NCBI GenBank assembly: GCA_022822745.1
Contig: JAJEAO010000011.1
Span: 23,921 to 87,920 of the forward strand
From: Acidobacteriota bacterium
GTDB taxonomy: Bacteria; Acidobacteriota; Vicinamibacteria; Marinacidobacterales; Marinacidobacteraceae
Direction of reading: 5' to 3'
DNA length: 64,000 bases
This document shows positions 15,947-63,893 of the stretch, one piece after another. The notes beneath the pieces are model-generated. The model did no database searches, was not told the DNA's origin, and saw only the letters and a list, made by a program, of their open reading frames with translations. Positions within the stretch are counted from its first letter, which is position 1. Each line of letters starts with the position of its first letter. The translations under genes and the position numbers were made by a program.

Positions 15947-16290
15947 GCGGGCCACCGGCGCTCGCCGGTGCGCCGGGCTGGTTCTCGCGGTAGCGGCCCT
16001 GCCCGGCAGGGAGTACGCCGGCGCCGGGGTTGCCGGCGCGCCGGGCCGGTTCTCGCGGTAGCGGCCCCGCCCGGCGGGAAATACGCCGGCGCCGGCATTG
16101 CCGGCGCGCCGGGCCGGTTCTCGCGGTGCCGGCCCCGCCCCGCACGGAGGGACGCGAACGCCACGCGCTTCGCGGGGAATTGCCACTCTGGAGTGTGGCG
16201 CTCCATACGAGTGGCGCCGGCATTGCCGGCGCGCCGGGCTCCGCCCGGCAGGAAGTACGCCGGCGCCCGCGAACGGGCCGGCGCAGTAGC
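15947..16290 (+). repeat. GC-rich intergenic tandem repeat (68-bp period, about 3 copies plus degenerate copy); dispersed repeat family site A
   Basis: GGTTCTCGCGG begins at about 15980, 16048 and 16116; core CGCCGGGCCGGTTCTCGCGGTAGCGGCCCCGCCCGG. Confidence 0.85.
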
Positions 16291-31925: not shown

Positions 31926-33287
31926 CTACGAGACGCGGATCCGCTCGAGGAGCTCGCGGTTGTTCCGGGTGCGCTCCATGCGGCTCAGCAGGAGCGACAT
32001 CGCCTCCAGGGGCTTCAGGCCGGACAGGGCGCGCCGCAGCAGATGGGTCTTCGGCAGCTCGTCGGCGGGGAGCAGGAGCTCCTCGCGCCGGGTGCCGGAA
32101 TGGTGGATGTGGATCGCCGGGAAGACCCGCGACTCGGCGAGCGTGCGACTCAGCACCAGCTCCATGTTTCCGGTGCCCTTGAACTCCTGGAAGATGACCT
32201 CGTCCATCTGGCTGCCGGTGTCCACGAGCGCGGTGCCCAGGATCGTGAGGCTGCCCCCGTCGTCGATCTTCCTGGCGGCGCCGAAGAACTGTCGCGGGAA
32301 CTCGAGCGCCCTCGAGTCGATCCCGCCGCTCATGGTGCGGCCCTTGCCCCGGGTCTCCCGGTTCGCCGCGCGGCCGAGGCGGGTGATCGAGTCGAGCAGG
32401 ATGACGACGTCCTCCTTCATCTCCACCAGGCGCCGGGCCTGTTCCAGCACGATCCGGGCGACTCGCACGTGGTCGGCGCTGCCGCTGTCCGCGGTCGAGG
32501 CCACGACCTGGGCGTGCGGCACCGACCGCCGCATGTGAGTGACTTCCTCCGGCCGTTCGTCGATCAGGAGGATGATGAGATGGATGCCGCCGTAGTGCTT
32601 CGCGATCGCCTGCCCGATCTGCTCGAGGAGGATCGTCTTGCCGGTCTTGGGGGCGGCCACGATGAGTCCCCGCTGTCCGCGGCCGATCGGGGCGAGCATG
32701 TCCACCACCCGAAGTGACATCGGGGCGTCCTCGGCCCGCGCGAGCTCGATGCGCGGCTCGGGGTGCACGCTGATCAGGTCCGCGTAGTTCCGGCGCGACG
32801 GCATCGCATTGACTTCGTAGCCGTTCACCTCGAGGACCGTGTGGAGCTCCTGGCTCGGCGGCCCCCGGCGGCGTCGGCGGCGTCGGCCGGGCGCGCTGTA
32901 GCCGTACACCATGTGGCCCTCCCGAAGTCGGTAGCGATCCACGACTCCGTAGGGCACGCGGACATCGGTGGCGCGGGGGAGGAAGTTGTTCTTCGCCAGT
33001 CGAAGATGACCGCTGTCCCGAGGGCCCAGATCCAGCAGACCGGTCACCTCGTTGCGCGGCAGCTCGGCGGGCGCCGCGGCTTCGGCGCTCTCGGCGCCCT
33101 CGGCCGACGCGGGTTGTTCGGAGGCGTCGGCCCGAGCCACGGCGTCCACGCCCGGGGCCGCTCCGTTGCTCCGCTTCCGGAACGGGCGTCGGCCCCGGCG
33201 GCGACGGCCGGAGTGTGAGTGCGACGGGCGGCCGCGTCGGGAATACGAACGGCGCCGCCGGGGAGAGTCTTGTCTCGTGCTCGGCAT
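31926..33287 (-). CDS. rho: Transcription termination factor Rho, Arg-rich N-terminus, Walker A APKTGKT
   Basis: MLAPIGRGQRGLIVAAPKTGKTILLEQIGQAI...LLIDERPEEVTHMRRSV...TMSGGIDSRALEFPRQFFGAAR. Confidence 0.96.
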   Translation of the reverse strand: MPSTRQDSPRRRRSYSRRGRPSHSHSGRRRRGRRPFRKRSNGAAPGVDAVARADASEQPASAEGAESAEAAAPAELPRNEVTGLLDLGPRDSGHLRLAKNNFLPRATDVRVPYGVVDRYRLREGHMVYGYSAPGRRRRRRRGPPSQELHTVLEVNGYEVNAMPSRRNYADLISVHPEPRIELARAEDAPMSLRVVDMLAPIGRGQRGLIVAAPKTGKTILLEQIGQAIAKHYGGIHLIILLIDERPEEVTHMRRSVPHAQVVASTADSGSADHVRVARIVLEQARRLVEMKEDVVILLDSITRLGRAANRETRGKGRTMSGGIDSRALEFPRQFFGAARKIDDGGSLTILGTALVDTGSQMDEVIFQEFKGTGNMELVLSRTLAESRVFPAIHIHHSGTRREELLLPADELPKTHLLRRALSGLKPLEAMSLLLSRMERTRNNRELLERIRVS

Positions 33288-33843
33288 CAGGGGCTTCCGC
33301 CGGGACCGGCTCGAGCGGCCCCGGGAAGAGTCGAAGAGAGGGGACGGCCCCGCGAGGGGCTCGTCATCAGGTGGGCGCGAGGTCGGCGGGGCTCGCTGTG
33401 GCCCGGCTCCACCTCGCCGGGAAGCGGGACGAAGACCAGGGCCGAACCGGTCCGGCGCGTCGGGCGCGGGTGCAGCCCTCGCGCCGGCTCACGGCGCTAC
33501 GCGCGAACGCCTCCCGACGGGTCCGTCGTGGAGCGGGCATCCGGAAACGTGGACGCACTCGCGATCAGCCGCGAAACCGGCTGACCTCATCCCCCCGCTG
33601 ATTCCGTTTCGCAGCATAGCACGAGCCAGCCGTCCCGGGCCGGTCTCCCGGTCGGGCGTCAACCGTCGCGCGCCCCTGACGGCGGAGCGCCCCCGGGCTG
33701 AAGCATGCCCCGTGGACCCGGAAATCGCTCCCGTGAGCCCCTTTCCGGGCGGAAAAAGCACGAGGCTCCCCCGCTCACGGCAGCTCTCCGGGTATCGGCC
33801 GATCTGTCTCCAACCTTGTAACCCGAATAAGGAGAAGCCGCCC

Positions 33844-36774
33844 ATGCCCCCACCCGATCACGAGCTGAACCGAACGCTGGTCCTCAACATCATCCGGGGC
33901 GCGCTGATGGAGGGGAAGCCTTACATCAGCGATGTTCTGGAGGAAATCCACGACGGCTGCGCCAGGGACACCGACTGGCTCGCGGCCGGGCTGCCCGAGC
34001 TGCCCGATTCGCTGTTCTCGGACGTGTCCGGCAAGGGATTCGCGAGGGCGAGTCGCGCGGAGAGGAAGCAGCACGAGCAGGAACTGAAGGCGATTCTGGA
34101 TCACCTGGAGGAAGCCGACCAGCCTCCGCCCGCCGCGCCCGCGGAGACCGACGAGGGGGAGAACGTCGTCCTGGATGTCTCCGACATGGCCGACCCGCCG
34201 CCGTCCGCGGAGGCCGACGAGGGCCCCGGGCATCGGGCGGTCCGCCTTCTCGCAGACTGCCTCGGACTGGATCGCGACTGCGTCCGGATCCTCGACCTCT
34301 GCCGAATCTCGGACGGGGACGGACTGGTGCGGAGCCTGTGGAAGACGTTCCAGCCTCTCCGGGACAATGCGCGGAAGGTGGCGCTCTTCCTGGCGATGCC
34401 CGGCGCGCGGGCGCGGCGGGCGCTGGAGACCCTGTGCGAAATCCGCCTGCTGCGCATCGGCGACTCCCGCGACCCCGACCGCGAGGATCCCGACGACTGG
34501 CTCCCTCGCCCGGTCCAGTCCCTGTGGACCGCGCCGGTCGCGGACCGCGACGAGCTGCGGAGGCGCCTGGTCGGCGAGCCGCAAGAGGCGCTCCTCGGCC
34601 TGGACGCCTTCGGCCATGTCGAGGAACGGGTGGAGGCGCTCGGAGTGCTCCGAGGAGCGCTCCGGCGGCGCGCCGCCGGCGAAACCGCCGAGCCGGGCGT
34701 GAACATCCTCCTGTTCGGTCGCGCCGGGACCGGGAAGACGGAACTGGCCCGCACGCTCGCGGCGGAAGCGCAGGGACAGCTCCATTCGATCGGCGAACTT
34801 CGCCCCGGCGCCAGCGAGACCACGGGGCGCCGCCTCAGCGGTCGAACCGACCGCCGCATCGAACGGCGGAACGGCTTGCGTTTCGCAAACGCCGTCCTCG
34901 CTCGCCAGCCGAACGCGGTCCTTCTCTGCGACGAGATGGAGGGGGTCGTGGACGCGGATGGTGACCGGCAGCTCGAAGTCCACCGGCTTCTCGAACGCAA
35001 TCCGGTGCCGACGATCTTCACGGCGAACCGGATCACCCACTTGAGCGAAGCGGTCCTTCGCCGGTTCATGGTCGTCGTGCGGCTCCGGCCACTCGGTCCC
35101 GGCGTCCGGCGCACCGTCGTGACGCGCATGCTCGGCGAATCCGGCATCGAGCTCCGTGATCCCGGCGCCGTGACCCGCCGCCTGGCGGACGAGCTGGAGT
35201 GCTCCTTCGGCATCGTCGCTTCGGCGCTCCGGGCGGCGCGACTCGTCGAGGGGCAGGACGAGGAGCTGCTTCGCAGCGCCGAGCGGATCGAACGCACGAT
35301 CTCGACCCACATCGCGCTGCCGCGGATCGGCGCCCCTGTTCCCGCCCGCCTCCCGTGGAGCGCGTTCCACCACCTGGGCGACGACGCCGAAGACGCGCTC
35401 GCCGTGCTCCGAACGACGCTTCGCGCGCGCGAGTCCGGCGATCCCGTCTCGGTTCCGGGAGTCAACCTTCTCTTCTACGGCGCTCCGGGAACCGGCAAGA
35501 CCGAGTTTTCCCGCACCCTCGCCGCAGAGGCGGGCGCGGTTCTCTATGCGGTCGGAGGCGCAGGGGCCGGATCGGACACCCGGCTGACCCTGCCGCGCGA
35601 CCACGCGCTCGAGTACGCGATCGAGACGCTGCGCCACGAGCCGCGGGCGGTGATCCTCTTCGACGAGATGGAGGATTTCGGCCACCTGCGGCCCAAGGAA
35701 TGGCTGAACCGCCTCATGGAACGCTCTCCGGTTCCGATTCTGTGGACCGCGAACGCCACCGACTTCTTCCGCGCGGTGCGTCCGTTCTCGCTGGATCGGA
35801 TGGTTCACGCGATCCGGTTCGGGCGCATGCGCCTCAAGGACCGCAAGGCGCTGTTTGCCTCGATGTTCCGGGAGGCCGGGCTGTCGGACTCCGAGTCGGC
35901 CCAGCTCGGCGACGAGTTCGCCCGCACCGCGGGAATGACCCCCCGGCAGGTCCGGCTCGCGGCCGAACACGGGCAGGGTCGCGGCGCCGACGCGATCCGC
36001 CGCATGGCTCATCAGAAGGCCAGGCTCCGGTTCGGAGCGGCGCCGTTCCAGCGCAGCTCTCCCCGGACCTACGATCCCGCGATCGTTCGCGCCGATCACG
36101 ATCTGATGGAGCTGGCGAGCGCGCTCCGGCGAGACCCGTCTTCAGGAGCAGGCCTTCTCTTCTCCGGTCCGTCCGGAGCCGGCAAGTCCGCTTTCGCGCG
36201 GTATCTCGCCGAGTCCATGGGAAAGGACTGCCAGGTGCGGCGGGCGTCCGACCTCATCGACAAGTACATCGGCGAGAGCGAGAAGCGGATCGCCCGGGCC
36301 TTCGACCAGGCGCGGTCGCAGGACGCGGTGCTCGTCTTCGACGAGGCCGACTCGCTGCTGTCCGATCGCCGGACCGCCCAGCGCTCGTGGGAGATCAGTC
36401 AGGTCAACGAAATGCTCTCCCAGATGGAGCGGCACCCGCTCCCGTTCATCTGCACCACGAACCTGGCCGACGCCCTTGATTCGGCATCGGTCCGACGGTT
36501 CCTGATCCACGCCCGATTCGACTACCTGGATCGGGAGCGGATCGCGCGGGGCTATCGGCTCTTCTTCGGAGAGGCAGCCCCGCCCGAAGTGCTCTTGCTG
36601 AAGCGCATGACTCCGGCGCATCTCGCGCTCGTCCGGCGCCAGGCAAGGCTCCTCCGTTTCAGCGAGGATCCGGATCGCATCGCAGCCGCCCTGCGGCGCG
36701 AGTGCCGGGACGCGTCTCGCCGCGCCGTCGCGGGCTTCGAAGTCGCCCGAGACCCACAGCCGCAGAACCGGTAG
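33844..36774 (+). CDS. Large protein with three tandem AAA+ ATPase domains
   Basis: Three Walker A motifs: GRAGTGKT (34717-34740), GAPGTGKT (35479-35502), GPSGAGKS (36166-36189); Walker B VLLCDEMEG, VILFDEMED, VLVFDEADS; RBS-like aggag before ATG at 33844. Confidence 0.88.
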   Translation: MPPPDHELNRTLVLNIIRGALMEGKPYISDVLEEIHDGCARDTDWLAAGLPELPDSLFSDVSGKGFARASRAERKQHEQELKAILDHLEEADQPPPAAPAETDEGENVVLDVSDMADPPPSAEADEGPGHRAVRLLADCLGLDRDCVRILDLCRISDGDGLVRSLWKTFQPLRDNARKVALFLAMPGARARRALETLCEIRLLRIGDSRDPDREDPDDWLPRPVQSLWTAPVADRDELRRRLVGEPQEALLGLDAFGHVEERVEALGVLRGALRRRAAGETAEPGVNILLFGRAGTGKTELARTLAAEAQGQLHSIGELRPGASETTGRRLSGRTDRRIERRNGLRFANAVLARQPNAVLLCDEMEGVVDADGDRQLEVHRLLERNPVPTIFTANRITHLSEAVLRRFMVVVRLRPLGPGVRRTVVTRMLGESGIELRDPGAVTRRLADELECSFGIVASALRAARLVEGQDEELLRSAERIERTISTHIALPRIGAPVPARLPWSAFHHLGDDAEDALAVLRTTLRARESGDPVSVPGVNLLFYGAPGTGKTEFSRTLAAEAGAVLYAVGGAGAGSDTRLTLPRDHALEYAIETLRHEPRAVILFDEMEDFGHLRPKEWLNRLMERSPVPILWTANATDFFRAVRPFSLDRMVHAIRFGRMRLKDRKALFASMFREAGLSDSESAQLGDEFARTAGMTPRQVRLAAEHGQGRGADAIRRMAHQKARLRFGAAPFQRSSPRTYDPAIVRADHDLMELASALRRDPSSGAGLLFSGPSGAGKSAFARYLAESMGKDCQVRRASDLIDKYIGESEKRIARAFDQARSQDAVLVFDEADSLLSDRRTAQRSWEISQVNEMLSQMERHPLPFICTTNLADALDSASVRRFLIHARFDYLDRERIARGYRLFFGEAAPPEVLLLKRMTPAHLALVRRQARLLRFSEDPDRIAAALRRECRDASRRAVAGFEVARDPQPQNR

Positions 36775-36818
36775 CGCGTCATCTGGACATCCTGCTGGAC
36801 ATCCTGGCCGTGTCGAAC

Positions 36819-37136
36819 ATGCTGACGAGAGCCGTCCATCGTGTAGGCGTCAGAGCGGTAAGTGTTTCTATCGTCACGGCGCTCGCCTCACTCCTGGTGG
36901 CGCTTCTTGCCCTCGTGATGGTGCTATGGATGTGGAGAGTCATTGATGATCTCGTCGAAAGGCTCATTGAGAAATCGGCATACGTACTGTGTCTGGGGAT
37001 GTTGAGCATCCTTCGTGTGGTCGTCAATTACTTCAGGAAACATCGCCATCGGATGTCCAAGAAGAATCAGGCTGCCGTATCCGAGATGGAAATCGAGCTA
37101 TCCGAGATAGAGGATCTCGTGAAGAGCCCGAGCTGA
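36819..37136 (+). CDS. Small membrane protein with TM hairpin and charged cytosolic tail
   Basis: VSVSIVTALASLLVALLALVMVLWMWRVIDDLVERLIEKSAYVLCLGMLSILRVVVNYFRKHRHRMSKKNQAAVSEMEIELSEIEDLV; directly downstream of the AAA+ gene. Confidence 0.6.
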   Translation: MLTRAVHRVGVRAVSVSIVTALASLLVALLALVMVLWMWRVIDDLVERLIEKSAYVLCLGMLSILRVVVNYFRKHRHRMSKKNQAAVSEMEIELSEIEDLVKSPS

Positions 37137-38977: not shown

Positions 38978-39144
38978 ACCTCCCGGTGCTACTCCGGGGA
39001 GGCGGGCTCCGCCGGATTCGTACTGTTTGCCCGGGAGCGGGCTCCCGGACCGCATCCCCCACACGGGGAGCCACCTTCGCCCGAATCCGGAGACCCAAGA
39101 GGCAGGTTGGCGAGAGCGCCCGAAGGCGCTCCACTCAGGATGCT
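38978..39144. repeat. Structured 167-bp direct repeat, copy 1
   Basis: Near-identical ungapped match to 43587-43753 (offset 4609 bp) with several stem-loops. Confidence 0.93.
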
Positions 39145-39408
39145 TCAGGCAACTTTATCACACGACTTCCCGCCCGAGCCGCCTCCGATAGAGCCGCCAT
39201 ACCAACACTCGCCGCCCTGGACGCCTGGGAACAGCGTCGTCACCGCGGAGTGAGGCGACAGGATCGCTGACCGGAAGCAGCCCATGTGGCCGGGCGACGG
39301 TCCTCCAGTCCTTGCCAACCGAGCGCACCGTGACTCACTATCACCGTGCGCGCCCTCGCCGGTGAGGTGATCTCTCCGGAGCGGTTCGCCGTCGCCGCCG
39401 CGATCCAG

Positions 39409-40293
39409 TTACGGCAGCTCCTGCAGACGTGCCTTCAGCCGTTCCAAGGAGCTCTTCTTCGGAGGATGCCCCTCCGGAAAGTCCCGCTCCGGGAGCGCGA
39501 TCCAGCCCTCCATCTTCGCGAGATCCTCCATCCCGCGTGGAATCGGTTGAACCAGCGGATCTTGTCCGGGTTGCCGGCGGTCCAACTCAACCATCAGGGC
39601 GATGATCGCTGACACCAAGCCATCCAAGGTGTCATCGCTATTGATGCAGTCTTCACGAAAACTCCCCAACCAGTCAGTCGGCAGATCAAGGCCCTTGATC
39701 ATCTTCTTGATGATCTTCTCGCGAGCACTCTTGTGTTTGTCCTCAGACCCCTTGTACCCAGTGTGAACCAACTTCCAGAGCTTCAGGGCAACGGCCGGAT
39801 ACACTTCCACGAAGCACCCGCTACGCCCGGAGCGGTCGACTCTCAAGCCTTTCTTGGCTGTTGCCCGCGAGAGAAGAGATGCGTTCCGGATTGCCACAGC
39901 GCCAAGAGAATCCACCGCAACGCTGAGTGGCTTCCGCCCGAGGTGCCAGACGTGTAGGTCGGTTGCCCGGTACTTCAGATCCAGATACTCGGATGCCGAC
40001 GTGATCCGCTCAGGATAGACGTCAGGATTGTTAAGTGGCCAGCGATGGAAGCTCCGGTAGTCATGTAGAGCACTGACAAACCCGACTGGCCACCCAAATG
40101 GTGAGTCAATGCCGATCCTCCGGACCAAGGGATCACCAAAGGCATCAAGCAGCGTCTTGTCGTCCGCGGGCTTCTGATGATCCTCAATCTCGGGGATCCC
40201 GTTTGAGATCTTGATCGTACATAGAGCTGTCTTGTCTGCTTGGGCGGCGAGGTCCACGCCGAGAACCTTGAAGTTCCTCTCTGAGTCACTCAT
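39409..40293 (-). CDS. DUF429-family protein (predicted RNase H-like fold)
   Basis: KVLGVDLAAQADKTALCTIKI...RRIGIDSPFGWPVGFV...YRATDLHVW...FVEVYPAVALKLW...SDDTLDGLVSAIIALM. Confidence 0.85.
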   Translation of the reverse strand: MSDSERNFKVLGVDLAAQADKTALCTIKISNGIPEIEDHQKPADDKTLLDAFGDPLVRRIGIDSPFGWPVGFVSALHDYRSFHRWPLNNPDVYPERITSASEYLDLKYRATDLHVWHLGRKPLSVAVDSLGAVAIRNASLLSRATAKKGLRVDRSGRSGCFVEVYPAVALKLWKLVHTGYKGSEDKHKSAREKIIKKMIKGLDLPTDWLGSFREDCINSDDTLDGLVSAIIALMVELDRRQPGQDPLVQPIPRGMEDLAKMEGWIALPERDFPEGHPPKKSSLERLKARLQELP

Positions 40294-40492
40294 GGGTCGG
40301 GAGGGTACCAGGGGAGAGCGGCTCGGAACAAATGCCGGCGCGCCGGACTGATGGTCAAGGGATGAGGGGCCTCTCCACTGGCGGCTTGCGGTTGAGCGAT
40401 CTCGCCGGGGCCAGGCGAAATCCTGTAGCGCCCAATGGGCCAAGGTCTGTTCTCTAAACAGGGACACTACTACGACTTACGCGAGAAATCGG

Positions 40493-40840
40493 TCACAGAA
40501 TGACGAACTTGGATGGCCCGGGGCAGCGCCGGGGCGGCAGTGCCGGGAGGTCGGAGGGTGAGATCCGGAGGGCGAGTTCGCGCAAGACGTCGAGCCGGGT
40601 GAGGTCCGGTTCGCTGGTCCGGAGCCAGGCGGTGTCGGTGGACTGAGTGATCACCGCGAGAACGGAGAGCGGGTCGCGGATCCTGTGCGTGGCGAGTCGT
40701 GCCGGGACGACCGGGCAGGCGTCGGGAAGGAGCTGGGGCGGTGTTCTGCGGACGGATCCAGGGACAGCCAGGCGCCGGGCCGTACGTTGGATCGCGTCGG
40801 TAAGGATGGACTCGGCAGTGTTCCCGAGTCGGGAGAACAT
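40493..40840 (-). CDS. Hypothetical protein, possibly truncated
   Basis: ORF MFSRLGNTAESILTDAIQRTARRLAVPGS; coding-like residues continue upstream (ESDAARILVQLGDPEN) without a clear start. Confidence 0.3.
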   Translation of the reverse strand: MFSRLGNTAESILTDAIQRTARRLAVPGSVRRTPPQLLPDACPVVPARLATHRIRDPLSVLAVITQSTDTAWLRTSEPDLTRLDVLRELALRISPSDLPALPPRRCPGPSKFVIL

Positions 40841-40894
40841 GTTCTCGGGGTCGCCAAGCTGAACGAGGATCCTTGCGGCGTCGGATTCGTGTCG

Positions 40895-42253
40895 TCAGTG
40901 CGCCTTTCGGTGACGGCTTCGGTATGGACCAGGGTCGGGTCGGCAAAACTCCCTGGGACGACGAAAGGCGATGATTCGTCTGAATCGGCCGCAATTCGGA
41001 CGGAAACTATAGGGGATTATATCTCTGAGTATCCACGGCGGAGGTAGCTGCCTCTGCGTTCCCCATATTGGATTCGACGCCATCCACCCACGATCCACTC
41101 CGCATCTCCGACTGCGTGATTTCCCTCCTCCATCTTCCAGGCGGCAGCTCTGCCGCCATGCGCGGAACTCGTCAACAAGGGCATACATCTCGTCAATGGC
41201 CACCCTCGCCTCTCGAAGGTACTGACCTCTCTCAAGATCATCGAACTCCCTCCGCTTCTCCATGATCCGCCGATCCATCTCGAGTCCCCATCGTCTCTCC
41301 TCCTTGCTGATATCGCGCCACCATTTCTCCTCATGGACTCTCAGGCCATCATAGGAGTAATGGTCCTGGATCGCCTCCTCCAAGTCTCTGCGTCCATCCT
41401 TATACAGACCACTCAGAAACACTCTACCCAAGCTCATGAACCCCATCGTAGGACGTGAGATGGGAAGTAGTCTCTGTTCGAGAGTCCATACATGATGTGG
41501 ATTGCGCCTGCTGACTCTAGTGTGATCGCCTCCAGACGGTATCGCTCCCTGTTGAACTGCGAGTTGTTGATTCTTGAGCCTTTGAAACGCCCCCGCCCCG
41601 AACCCCGCCCTAGTCAATTGGAGCGAGGTTTCCTCCTCGTTGGTGAAAGAGAGATGCGCAATGCCCCTGGAAGGCCTGGTCATGATGGCCGACTCCTGAC
41701 CGTGCTTCCGAGCGAAGTACAGCATCTCTTTCTCGAACTCATCCTCCGGGGTCGTTCTTCTATCGGCATCCATCTCCCGTCCTCGGAGTCCGACAACGAG
41801 CCAAGACCACCACATCTCCGCTGCGGGGGCTCCGCCACGATTCTGATGAATGTACGAGCCCTTTACGAGCTGAGCGGAATACCCTAGGTCATCAATGTCC
41901 TTCCGCATCTCCTTGTTCCGAAGTTGGTTCACGCTCCTCGTAAACTCCTCCTTCGCCTCTACATTGCCGTGTCTGTCGTACTGAGACTTCTCGTCCTTGT
42001 AGGCGGAGATCTGACACACTGAAACGCAAGGGTGACGAGTCCATTGCTCGAATTGCGCCATCGACCGTTCGAGGAACGAAATCGCGTGTTCATTCGTGAT
42101 GCCCTCCAGGGAGGCCAGTTGTTTCACTCTATCTTCAAGGGCATAATCGGGAGAGTCAAAGATGTCTGTGACGCCGTGCGAGAACTCGGAAGAGTAGCCA
42201 ACGATACTCATGGCTTCGCATCCGTTGGCGCAATAGTAGTCGCTATACTTCAT
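40895..42253 (-). CDS. Hypothetical protein of unknown family; C-terminal extent uncertain
   Basis: Long ORF in AT-richer DNA with amino-acid use unlike GC-driven spurious ORFs: MKYSDYYCANGCEAMSIVGYSSEFSHGVTDIFDSPDYALEDRVKQLASLEGITNEHAISFLERSMAQFEQW. Confidence 0.68.
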   Translation of the reverse strand: MKYSDYYCANGCEAMSIVGYSSEFSHGVTDIFDSPDYALEDRVKQLASLEGITNEHAISFLERSMAQFEQWTRHPCVSVCQISAYKDEKSQYDRHGNVEAKEEFTRSVNQLRNKEMRKDIDDLGYSAQLVKGSYIHQNRGGAPAAEMWWSWLVVGLRGREMDADRRTTPEDEFEKEMLYFARKHGQESAIMTRPSRGIAHLSFTNEEETSLQLTRAGFGAGAFQRLKNQQLAVQQGAIPSGGDHTRVSRRNPHHVWTLEQRLLPISRPTMGFMSLGRVFLSGLYKDGRRDLEEAIQDHYSYDGLRVHEEKWWRDISKEERRWGLEMDRRIMEKRREFDDLERGQYLREARVAIDEMYALVDEFRAWRQSCRLEDGGGKSRSRRCGVDRGWMASNPIWGTQRQLPPPWILRDIIPYSFRPNCGRFRRIIAFRRPREFCRPDPGPYRSRHRKAH

Positions 42254-42287
42254 CCTCTACCATCTCCTCGGTGAGTGCAATGAGACA

Positions 42288-43460
42288 CTAGCCGAACACG
42301 GGGTACTTCGACGCTCGCGCTCGTCGTACTCTCCGGTACGCTCTGACCAGGTCGGCGCCCATCCAGGCGAGACCGACGGGCCTTCGTGCGTTCGGCAGGA
42401 ATCGGTACTGGAGGGGCTGGACGGTGGCGGCGGCCACCATGAAGGGGCGCCAGTGGCCCGACGGCGCGAGGACGAACTCGGGAAGCCCGTCAGGGCCTCC
42501 ATCGGCATTGATCCTGTTGGTGTAGAAGCCGCCGGTCCCGAAGGCGGGATCAGGCAGATCGCTCCGGGATTCTGGAGGACCGTTGCGTGATCCCGTCGTT
42601 CGCGCCGCGATCGCTGCCGGGTCGCGGAGAATGATCCGGCGTCGGGTCAGGCCGGGCGTGGACAGGACTTGTCCCACACCCGAGGCGGGGAGCGAATTCC
42701 CAGAGGAGGCGTCCTCGCCGGAGGAATCGGACCTGGCGCGCCGCGCTTCCGTAGGCGTGAGCGCATCGGCGACGACGATCAACTGCAAGGGAGGCGTCAG
42801 GTTGGGGTGGCGGATGACGTAGGAGTACTGCTTCCAGCGCGCCGCGATCCGCGCTGCAGCCGAACGCAGAGCCCCGGCGGAGAAGTATTCCGGACCGACG
42901 AACAGGATGCTGAGCTCCGGTCTGGTCTTGCCCCCTCTCGCCCGGCGATGTTCGCACTCCGCGCGGAGGTGTCTGAGAGCCCTGTCTCCGCGCTGCTCGC
43001 CCGCGGGGAGACCAGGACGAACGGCGTTGCGCGCCGTCCGCATCAGACCGGTCGTCCGGGTCCAGTACCGCCTCCAGAGAGGAAGGTCCAGCATAGGAGC
43101 GTTCTGTCGCTGTCCGCAGTGGCCGCGGAGGATCCAGCTCGTCCGGGTCATCGCCGACACCTCGTTCCTGCCCCGGTCGAGAGGGAGTTTGCCGAGCTGC
43201 CTGACGGGCTCGATGAAGTCCTCCATGGAATCCCACCCGCTCGGTGTCCTGCCGCCTGGCAGCGAGAGGATCAGAAGCGGCTTGTCGCTCTCCAGAAGGG
43301 CCTGCAGCGGGGGGCCCATCGCCTCGATGAGGACGGGCACAGTGGAGTCGGAGTCCTTCGCGTGTTTCCGCACCGAGCTGAGTCCCACTTCCAGGAGAGG
43401 CTGGAACCTCCCGTTGACGCTGCCGGGAAAGCGAGGGGCCGCCGTCGCGTCCGAACTCAT
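42288..43460 (-). CDS. Hypothetical protein of unknown family
   Basis: MSSDATAAPRFPGSVNGRFQPLLEVGLSSVRKHAKDSDSTVPVLIEAMGPPLQALLESDKPLLILSLPGG...RPELSILFVGPEYFSAGALRSAAARIAARWKQYSYVIRHPNLTPPLQLIVVADAL. Confidence 0.68.
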   Translation of the reverse strand: MSSDATAAPRFPGSVNGRFQPLLEVGLSSVRKHAKDSDSTVPVLIEAMGPPLQALLESDKPLLILSLPGGRTPSGWDSMEDFIEPVRQLGKLPLDRGRNEVSAMTRTSWILRGHCGQRQNAPMLDLPLWRRYWTRTTGLMRTARNAVRPGLPAGEQRGDRALRHLRAECEHRRARGGKTRPELSILFVGPEYFSAGALRSAAARIAARWKQYSYVIRHPNLTPPLQLIVVADALTPTEARRARSDSSGEDASSGNSLPASGVGQVLSTPGLTRRRIILRDPAAIAARTTGSRNGPPESRSDLPDPAFGTGGFYTNRINADGGPDGLPEFVLAPSGHWRPFMVAAATVQPLQYRFLPNARRPVGLAWMGADLVRAYRRVRRARASKYPVFG

Positions 43461-43586
43461 GTCGTCTCGGCGGCGTGGACGGACTCGATCTCATCGAGGC
43501 CGGTCGCATCGGGTCGCCGCGGCCACGGCTTCCAGGGGCGGGGCTTCGCGACGGCGGGCGCCGGTGGGTTCTGCGAGCGCAAGCGG

Positions 43587-43753
43587 ACCTCCCGGTGATG
43601 CTCCGGGAAGGCAGGCTCCACCGGATTCGTACTGTTTGCCCGGGAGCGGGCTCCCGGACCGCATCCCCCGCACGGGGAGCCACCTTCGCCCGAATCCGGA
43701 GACCCAAGAGGCAGGTTGGCAAGAGCGCCCGAAGGCGCTCTACTCAGGATGCT
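43587..43753. repeat. Structured 167-bp direct repeat, copy 2
   Basis: Same length as copy 1, about 8 mismatches in a manual alignment; contains GAGCGCCCGAAGGCGCTC and CGGGAGCGGGCTCCCG hairpins. Confidence 0.93.
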
Positions 43754-44029: not shown

Positions 44030-44365
44030 CTAGCGCGATTCGATCGTCTGGATCGTGATCGTTTCGCCGTCGTCGGAGACGGTGCCGGTGATGGTCACGT
44101 CGGTCCCGGCGAAGGGCTGGGCCTCGTCCGGGTTCGCGATCGCGAAGACCTTCTCCTCGGACGCGACGTAGAGGGCGATGGAGGCCCCCATCTCCTGGCA
44201 GGCGATGACGCAGTCGGGATGGCTCATCCCGTCCATCATGTGCGTGGCGCCGCACATCGTGTCGGTGACGTGCGCCTCCCACGTCTGCTGCGCGGAGTCG
44301 GCGGCCGATCCGAGGGCGAGCCCGGCAAGCGCCAGGATCGAGAGAACGCTGAGGGTGATGCGCAT
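44030..44365 (-). CDS. Small exported protein with Cys/Met-rich segment
   Basis: Signal peptide MRITLSVLSILALAGLALGSAADS; WEAHVTDTMCGATHMMDGMSHPDCVIACQEMGASIALYVASEEKVFAIANPDEAQPFAGTDVTITGTV. Confidence 0.68.
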   Translation of the reverse strand: MRITLSVLSILALAGLALGSAADSAQQTWEAHVTDTMCGATHMMDGMSHPDCVIACQEMGASIALYVASEEKVFAIANPDEAQPFAGTDVTITGTVSDDGETITIQTIESR

Positions 44366-63509: not shown

Positions 63510-63893
63510 CGCGCCGGCGAAGAGCCGGCGCGCCACTTGCCGGCGCGCCGGGCTCCTGCCCGGCACGCGTACGCGGGCGCCACCCGCCATCGCACTGCTT
63601 GCCGGCGCGCCACTCACCGGCTCGTCACCTGCCGGCGCGCCGGGCCGGTTCTCGCGGTAGCGGCCCTGCCCGGCACGCGTACGCGGGCGCCACCCGCCAT
63701 CGCACCGATTGCGGGCGCGCCACTCACCGGCTCGTCGCTTGCCGGCGCGCCGGGCCGGTTCTCGCGGTAGCGGCCCTGCCCGGCACGCGTACGCGGGCGC
63801 CACCCGCCATCGCACCGCTTGCGGGCCCGCCACTCACTGGCTCGTCACTTGCCGGCGCGCCGGACCGGTTCTCGCGGTAGCGGCCCCGCCCTC
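63510..63893 (+). repeat. Dispersed intergenic repeat site C, tandem array with 110-bp period
   Basis: GGTTCTCGCGGTAGCGGCC starts at 63647, 63757 and 63867; each unit carries CACGCGTACGCGGGCGCCACCCGCCATCGCA. Confidence 0.9.

Follow-up and report, generated by a model that had tools for sequence, protein, structure and literature searches.

What are the two direct repeats that bracket a block of genes in this stretch of Acidobacteriota DNA (64,000 nucleotides, referred to here as the window)? The copies have the same orientation and the same length (167 bp) and differ by 8 substitutions, just as the preliminary description of the window had it, and they lie 4609 bp apart. That description left three readings side by side: a modular insertion unit, a recombination end, or a structured non-coding RNA deposited with each cargo. 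The last is right in kind, and the match to RF01725 makes it more exactly a cis-regulatory riboswitch leader. We put at about 90% the probability that each repeat is a divergent riboswitch leader of the SAM-I/SAM-IV superfamily and that the window holds the remains of an operon. The RNA has a known, if distant, relative in an established riboswitch class. In the open-licence literature, we found no published description of this operon or its SAM riboswitches, and no PMC paper linking MoxR to a SAM riboswitch or to a MetK operon.

Three copies of one leader

A BLAST search of the genome (G000) with the repeat returns exactly three places (E 1.9e-98, 1.8e-73, and 6.3e-63; the next match is at 0.03), and the similarity is not due to chance. 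The third copy lies outside the window and heads an intact operon. The repeat is thus not unique to the two spots in the window, a situation that had been named as pointing to a simple segmental duplication. The search for further copies proposed at the time gave this one more strong copy in the genome and no strong copy among 100 related genomes. The repeat has no match among plasmids.

The element is oriented along the minus strand, as are the genes between copies 1 and 2, and its 3' edge consists of a ribosome-binding site and a start codon. Each of the three copies has different genes behind it because the copies are 5' leaders. Weak similarity runs on at both sides of the repeat (a 240-nt family at 85%), and 150 nt of 5' flank are merely 44–46% alike between copies.

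The leader as a divergent SAM-I/IV riboswitch

A scan of the window at the Rfam gathering thresholds gives nothing; the riboswitch is therefore hidden from that scan. A sensitive scan matches copy 1, on the minus strand and at full length, to RF01725, the SAM-I/IV riboswitch, and also scores copy 2 and the C35 copy (Table 1). All three scores are below the gathering cut-off of 41.1 bits, and for this reason the copies are termed a divergent variant and not curated members of RF01725. Model positions 1–99 of 99 are matched with all stems intact, and the alignment with the model preserves the family's core residues. The three hairpins named in the preliminary description are all found; read on the minus strand, they correspond to P5 (CGGGAGC/GCTCCCG), P4 (CCCC/GGGG), and P2 (GAGCGCC/GGCGCTC) of a single aptamer.

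The structure is preserved among the copies. The aptamers differ from one another by 3 to 10 substitutions over 132 nt, and every one of the 135 base-pair cells (45 pairs in three copies) is canonical although 5 pairs vary. Inner P2 is a continuous helix of 8 bp without an internal loop. The L3-tail pseudoknot has a complementarity of 9 bp, and its pairing is locus-specific: over 24 loci it scores 15.8, and none of 1000 tail swaps, with the tail limited by position, reaches this value (maximum 13.9). Downstream of the pseudoknot is a hairpin that holds the ribosome site GGGAGG, with a TTG start a few nucleotides on.

The copies share with RF01725 (PMC2864571) the P1-P2-P3 core with a P2 lacking an internal loop, the hairpin between P3 and P1, the 3' hairpin, and the L3-tail pseudoknot. 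There is a likeness in gene context as well: RF01725 members elsewhere in the class precede metK and methionine-pathway genes. The copies differ from RF01725 in their score, in an enlarged L3, in a pseudoknot of 9 bp as against mostly 4–8, in the Shine-Dalgarno (SD)-masking hairpin that follows, and in the genes they head, a MoxR operon and the remains thereof.

Read by eye, each copy has an extended -10-like element some 8 nt ahead of its P1 (TGGTACGGT before copy 2 and TGGTAGAGT before the C35 copy; TAGAGT in G087), which makes the repeat in essence a 5' untranslated region. The promoter scan did not pick up this element. Besides the scores below the cut-off, two observations on folding count against the reading given here. 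Folding energies of the whole leader are unexceptional (z -0.83, -1.26, and +0.45), which tells against the riboswitch explanation, and the minimum free energy models keep the SD paired with or without the aptamer, so that no open state appears in them.

Table 1. Positions of the leaders, gene remnants, and genes discussed in the text. Positions are those of the window unless a contig is given; all bit scores are below the RF01725 gathering cut-off.
Feature	Position	Strand	Remarks
Genomic island specific to this genome	33060..44085		comparison with four sister species
Orphan gene, 412 aa	37329..38567	-	first large ORF downstream of copy 1 (~0.4 kb)
Riboswitch leader copy 1	38978..39144	-	RF01725 34.3 bits, E 5.5e-4; 45/45 pairs canonical; pseudoknot test
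Copy 1, aptamer match	39148-39013	-
Copy 1, P1 5' strand	39143-39139	-
Copy 1, pseudoknot strands	39090-39082, 39020-39012	-
Copy 1, SD-masking hairpin	39002-38979	-
Copy 1, TTG start	38973-38971	-
Extended -10-like element TGATAAAGT	39152..39160	-	~8 nt before copy 1 P1; read by eye
DUF429 protein, last gene of the block	39409..40293	-	PF04250 E 2.2e-15; PADLOC candidate PDC-S44 E 1.3e-8
X pseudogene remnant (second gene of the operon)	40556..40975	-	in-frame stop, internal deletion
Orphan gene, up to 452 aa	40895..42253	-	C-terminal end reads into X remnant
Orphan gene, 390 aa	42288..43460	-	directly behind AAA remnant, where AAA body belongs
MoxR AAA ATPase remnant	43457..43582	-	TTG start and ~37 codons; stop overlaps next ATG (ATGA)
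Riboswitch leader copy 2	43587..43753	-	RF01725 31.6 bits; pair counts
Copy 2, aptamer match	43757-43622	-
Copy 2, pseudoknot strands	43699-43691, 43629-43621	-
Copy 2, SD-masking hairpin	43611-43588	-
Copy 2, TTG start	43582-43580	-
Third genomic copy of the leader	G000:C35:19754-19923		RF01725 33.3 bits

The intact operon at C35

The C35 copy is followed on one strand by genes for a MoxR AAA+ ATPase, a protein X, a DUF2201/vWA protein, a divergent MetK, and the type III restriction proteins Mod and Res. The MoxR-type ATPase (L031:8250-9725) matches bpMoxR weakly, and X, of 182 aa, has no Pfam, NCBIfam, or PHROG match. The MetK matches TIGR01034 below the cut-off; its profile matches solved SAM synthetases (E 1e-54), and the motifs HPDK, GPDGK, and GGGALSGKD are kept. 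The MetK proteins of such operons form a clade apart from housekeeping MetK with a support of 100/100, and the housekeeping MetK of this genome is encoded elsewhere (C84). The C35 leader thus stands before a SAM-related gene, since the operon includes MetK.

A wrecked and re-used operon in the window

Remains of the same operon are found in the window in the expected order and on the expected strand. Behind copy 2, the start of the MoxR ATPase gene is 62% identical over 37 aa to the ATPase of the intact operon (E 1.5e-8; tblastn E 9.5e-6), and a tblastn search of the window with X gives the X remnant at 37–40% identity (E 3e-16 to 4e-18). Since the ATPase start, two orphan genes, and the X remnant follow one another, the two orphan genes have taken the place of the ATPase body and of the beginning of X. 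Neither the vWA nor the MetK part of the operon is found in the window. Read from copy 2, the block consists of leader, ATPase start, two orphan genes, X pseudogene, DUF429 gene, and the copy 1 leader, an arrangement that shows it to be a wrecked, re-used copy of the operon. Its riboswitch leaders have outlived their own gene and head new ones, which amounts to regulatory re-use.

The 390-aa orphan gene has a coding-like GC content by codon position (0.66/0.57/0.80); it is the sole copy in the genome and has no family and no plasmid match. The larger orphan gene matches phrog_12788 weakly (E 1.4e-4) and has no PDB match. A SAM-lyase reading of this gene, based on PF23780 at residues 102–211, was rejected (E 0.0027; 18.1 bits against a cut-off of 28). 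AlphaFold models of both orphan genes are too poor for a structure search (pLDDT 41 and 31).

It may be asked whether the two leaders in the window still have a present role or are non-functional relics, a riboswitch region duplicated in a decaying island. The relic reading is a possible one, though it stands clearly short of even odds. It draws on the truncated ATPase behind copy 2, on the decayed X gene, and on the sequence behind copy 1, where only a short ORF is followed, 0.4 kb away, by a gene whose control by copy 1 is uncertain. Against it, copies 1 and 2 differ at 3/132 aptamer positions (97.7% alike) where their flanks fall to 44–51%, and the pairs that vary among the three copies stay paired. 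Moreover, the ORF behind copy 2 is coupled by ATGA and has a codon bias like that of coding sequence. A recent duplication, with little time for decay, could also explain these features.

The island and the mobile-element reading

The preliminary description proposed that the repeats bracket an acquired cargo, as ends of a modular insertion unit. Part of this stands: an island of about 33.06–44.09 kb is absent from four sister species, in which the flanks at 33059 and 44085–44166 are joined by ~0.7 kb. The whole block is therefore part of an 11-kb island in which copy 1 does not mark an edge. The boundaries of the island do not coincide with the repeats at 39.0 and 43.7 kb, so that the repeats are not its ends, and the part of the proposal that made them an insertion unit or recombination end falls away, copy 1 being internal and the island reaching 6 kb to its left.

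That the repeats are nevertheless mobile-element or recombination ends that excise the cargo (integron- or insertion-sequence-like, or cassette boundaries) is highly improbable. Direct repeats do bracket 4.4 kb within a genome-specific island, but the left edge of the island is 6 kb away, strong copies are absent from 100 relatives and matches from plasmids, and the element matches a riboswitch, stops at a start codon, and heads an intact operon in its third copy. As had been observed before, no recognisable transposase was noticed between the repeats, and no transposase, integrase, or relaxase is found among the scanned island proteins (those outside 33–37 kb). Excision of the cargo through recombination, also raised earlier, is possible by RecA-dependent deletion as between any repeats; no evidence of excision was found.

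The island also encodes, at 33052-37136 (+), a possible defence pair: a protein that carries three AAA+ domains in tandem and, behind it, a small membrane protein. Elsewhere in the window, G+C-rich tandem repeats of 110 bp and 68 bp are present at 63555-63891 and 15956-16140; they are distant from each other and partly alike.

Relatives of the operon and their riboswitches

A profile of the AAA protein, which holds no RNA information, was used to search 396 genomes of the phylum and 193 of the class. Riboswitches were counted for the 16 homologues with usable upstream sequence other than those of G000 and G087; G023, with only 62 nt upstream, was left out. A SAM riboswitch lies upstream on the same strand in 13 of the 16: SAM-I in seven (G050, G060, G066, G071, G089, G148, and G732), SAM-I/IV in three (G802, G873, and G790, the last a weak match to RF01725 at E 0.046), and SAM-II in three (G028, G832, and G564, the last weak at E 0.15). 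The remaining three homologues (G721, G143, and G144) have no riboswitch upstream. G087, which was found via its riboswitch, has the whole four-gene operon.

MetK is present in 11 of the 12 operons with enough sequence. The exception is G790 (L105:8284-10545), where a protein with a cytidine-deaminase domain takes the place of MetK downstream of the vWA gene. Operon distribution is patchy (12/193 class genomes). A scan of the genome collection with MetK gives one relative, on an Acidiferrobacteraceae MAG contig (L041) with the end of a vWA gene upstream of MetK; apart from it, there is none at E <= 1e-50 in 193 class genomes and 369 Gammaproteobacteria.

SAM-I (RF00162) and SAM-II (RF00521) thus occupy the same place before the same AAA gene in other genomes. 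They are other RNA classes, and SAM-II is structurally unrelated to SAM-I/IV; its presence before one and the same operon means convergence on SAM control. That RNA classes unrelated to each other occur before a single operon is strong support for control of this operon by SAM, to which its expression would be tuned. The repeats in the window probably sense S-adenosylmethionine. A relative of SAM, such as SAH or another adenosyl compound, is quite unlikely as the ligand: the scores below the SAM-I/IV cut-off and the enlarged L3 and pseudoknot would allow for it, but the core residues of the family are kept and like operons elsewhere use SAM-I and SAM-II.

Several arrangements of these riboswitches deserve mention. 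Tandem SAM riboswitches precede the MoxR gene in G071, G832, and G089 (two SAM-I at L086, two SAM-II at L090, and two SAM-I at L120). In G087 (L073:1960-2090), the start codon (AUG) of the MoxR gene shares nucleotides with the 3' pseudoknot strand (UGGUU) of the SAM-I/IV riboswitch, which suggests that the pseudoknot may mask the start codon directly. An ORF of ~100 aa with the motif HHLWRNGR-WWIAFTVHLPGWQKERVRFSLGT separates the SAM riboswitch from metK in several genomes (L061-L068 and L076); at L092, it is placed between the riboswitch and the MoxR gene.

Proposed mechanism

In the favoured reading, the repeat is a 5' leader, extending from the transcription start to the start codon, with a translational expression platform. 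Binding of SAM would close P1 and the L3-tail pseudoknot, the SD hairpin would stay closed, and translation would stop; depletion of SAM is predicted to open the SD hairpin. At low SAM, a spare SAM synthetase and a MoxR-vWA machine would thereby be expressed, and the orphan genes behind copy 2 would now be under the control of SAM. Less confidently, the intact operon may be a back-up for times of low SAM: it would make SAM by means of its own MetK and might protect SAM-dependent functions, for example the adjacent restriction system.

Defence or metabolism

Restriction genes stand next to the operon in three genomes, type III genes in G000 and G790 and a gene for a type IV enzyme in G071. In G028 its neighbour is a NucS-like candidate for defence, and G066 has toxin-antitoxin-like genes beside it. 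Neighbours are metabolic, or defence neighbours are absent, in at least five loci (L073, L095, L098, L100, and L102), and the link to defence is therefore suggestive only.

The closest protein relatives are the MoxR-vWA ternary conflict systems (Kaur et al. 2020, PMC7159879), which likewise combine a MoxR-type AAA+ ATPase and a vWA protein in a single operon. No counterpart of the third component that defines them was found: no VMAP, iSTAND, FtsH, or beta-propeller was identified, and a SAM synthetase and X are present instead. The main text of PMC7159879 contains no MetK, AdoMet, or riboswitch. The AAA+/vWA partnership is also known from chaperones of the NorQ/NorD and RavA/ViaA type (PMC9976466, PMC10585395); those serve metal-cofactor or respiratory enzymes, whereas the encoded partner here is MetK.

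Chances are about even that the intact operon serves ordinary methionine and SAM homeostasis, as a second MetK with an assembly chaperone and no link to defence. Operons with metabolic or no defence neighbours and the kept catalytic motifs of MetK are consistent with this; the restriction, NucS-like, and toxin-antitoxin-like neighbours in five genomes, the patchy distribution in the class, and the occurrence of MoxR-vWA pairs in conflict systems argue against it. According to the account in PMC11842806, which cites Andriianov et al. 2023, the SAM lyase of phage T3 overcomes BREX in that it cleaves SAM and inhibits its synthesis. It is conceivable, if rather unlikely, that the operon is an immune or immunity-support module that senses SAM depletion. 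A phage SAM lyase would destroy SAM and inhibit housekeeping MetK, the riboswitch would open, and the divergent, possibly lyase-resistant MetK and the MoxR-vWA machine would keep SAM-dependent restriction alive or trigger an effector; the window would then hold the same switch, handed to new genes after loss of the ATPase. If this were true, a spare MetK induced by SAM shortage near restriction genes would be an answer to phage SAM lyase.

A further SAM-I/IV riboswitch of the genome

Only one SAM-I/IV riboswitch of this genome scores above the cut-off (53 bits); it is at C100 (L038:4447-4550). Behind it (L038:4611-6200) is a gene for an orphan protein of 529 aa, without a family, that is weakly similar to the product of window 40895-42253. 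In sister species of the family, a small ORF and aspartokinase-like genes follow the counterpart of this riboswitch.
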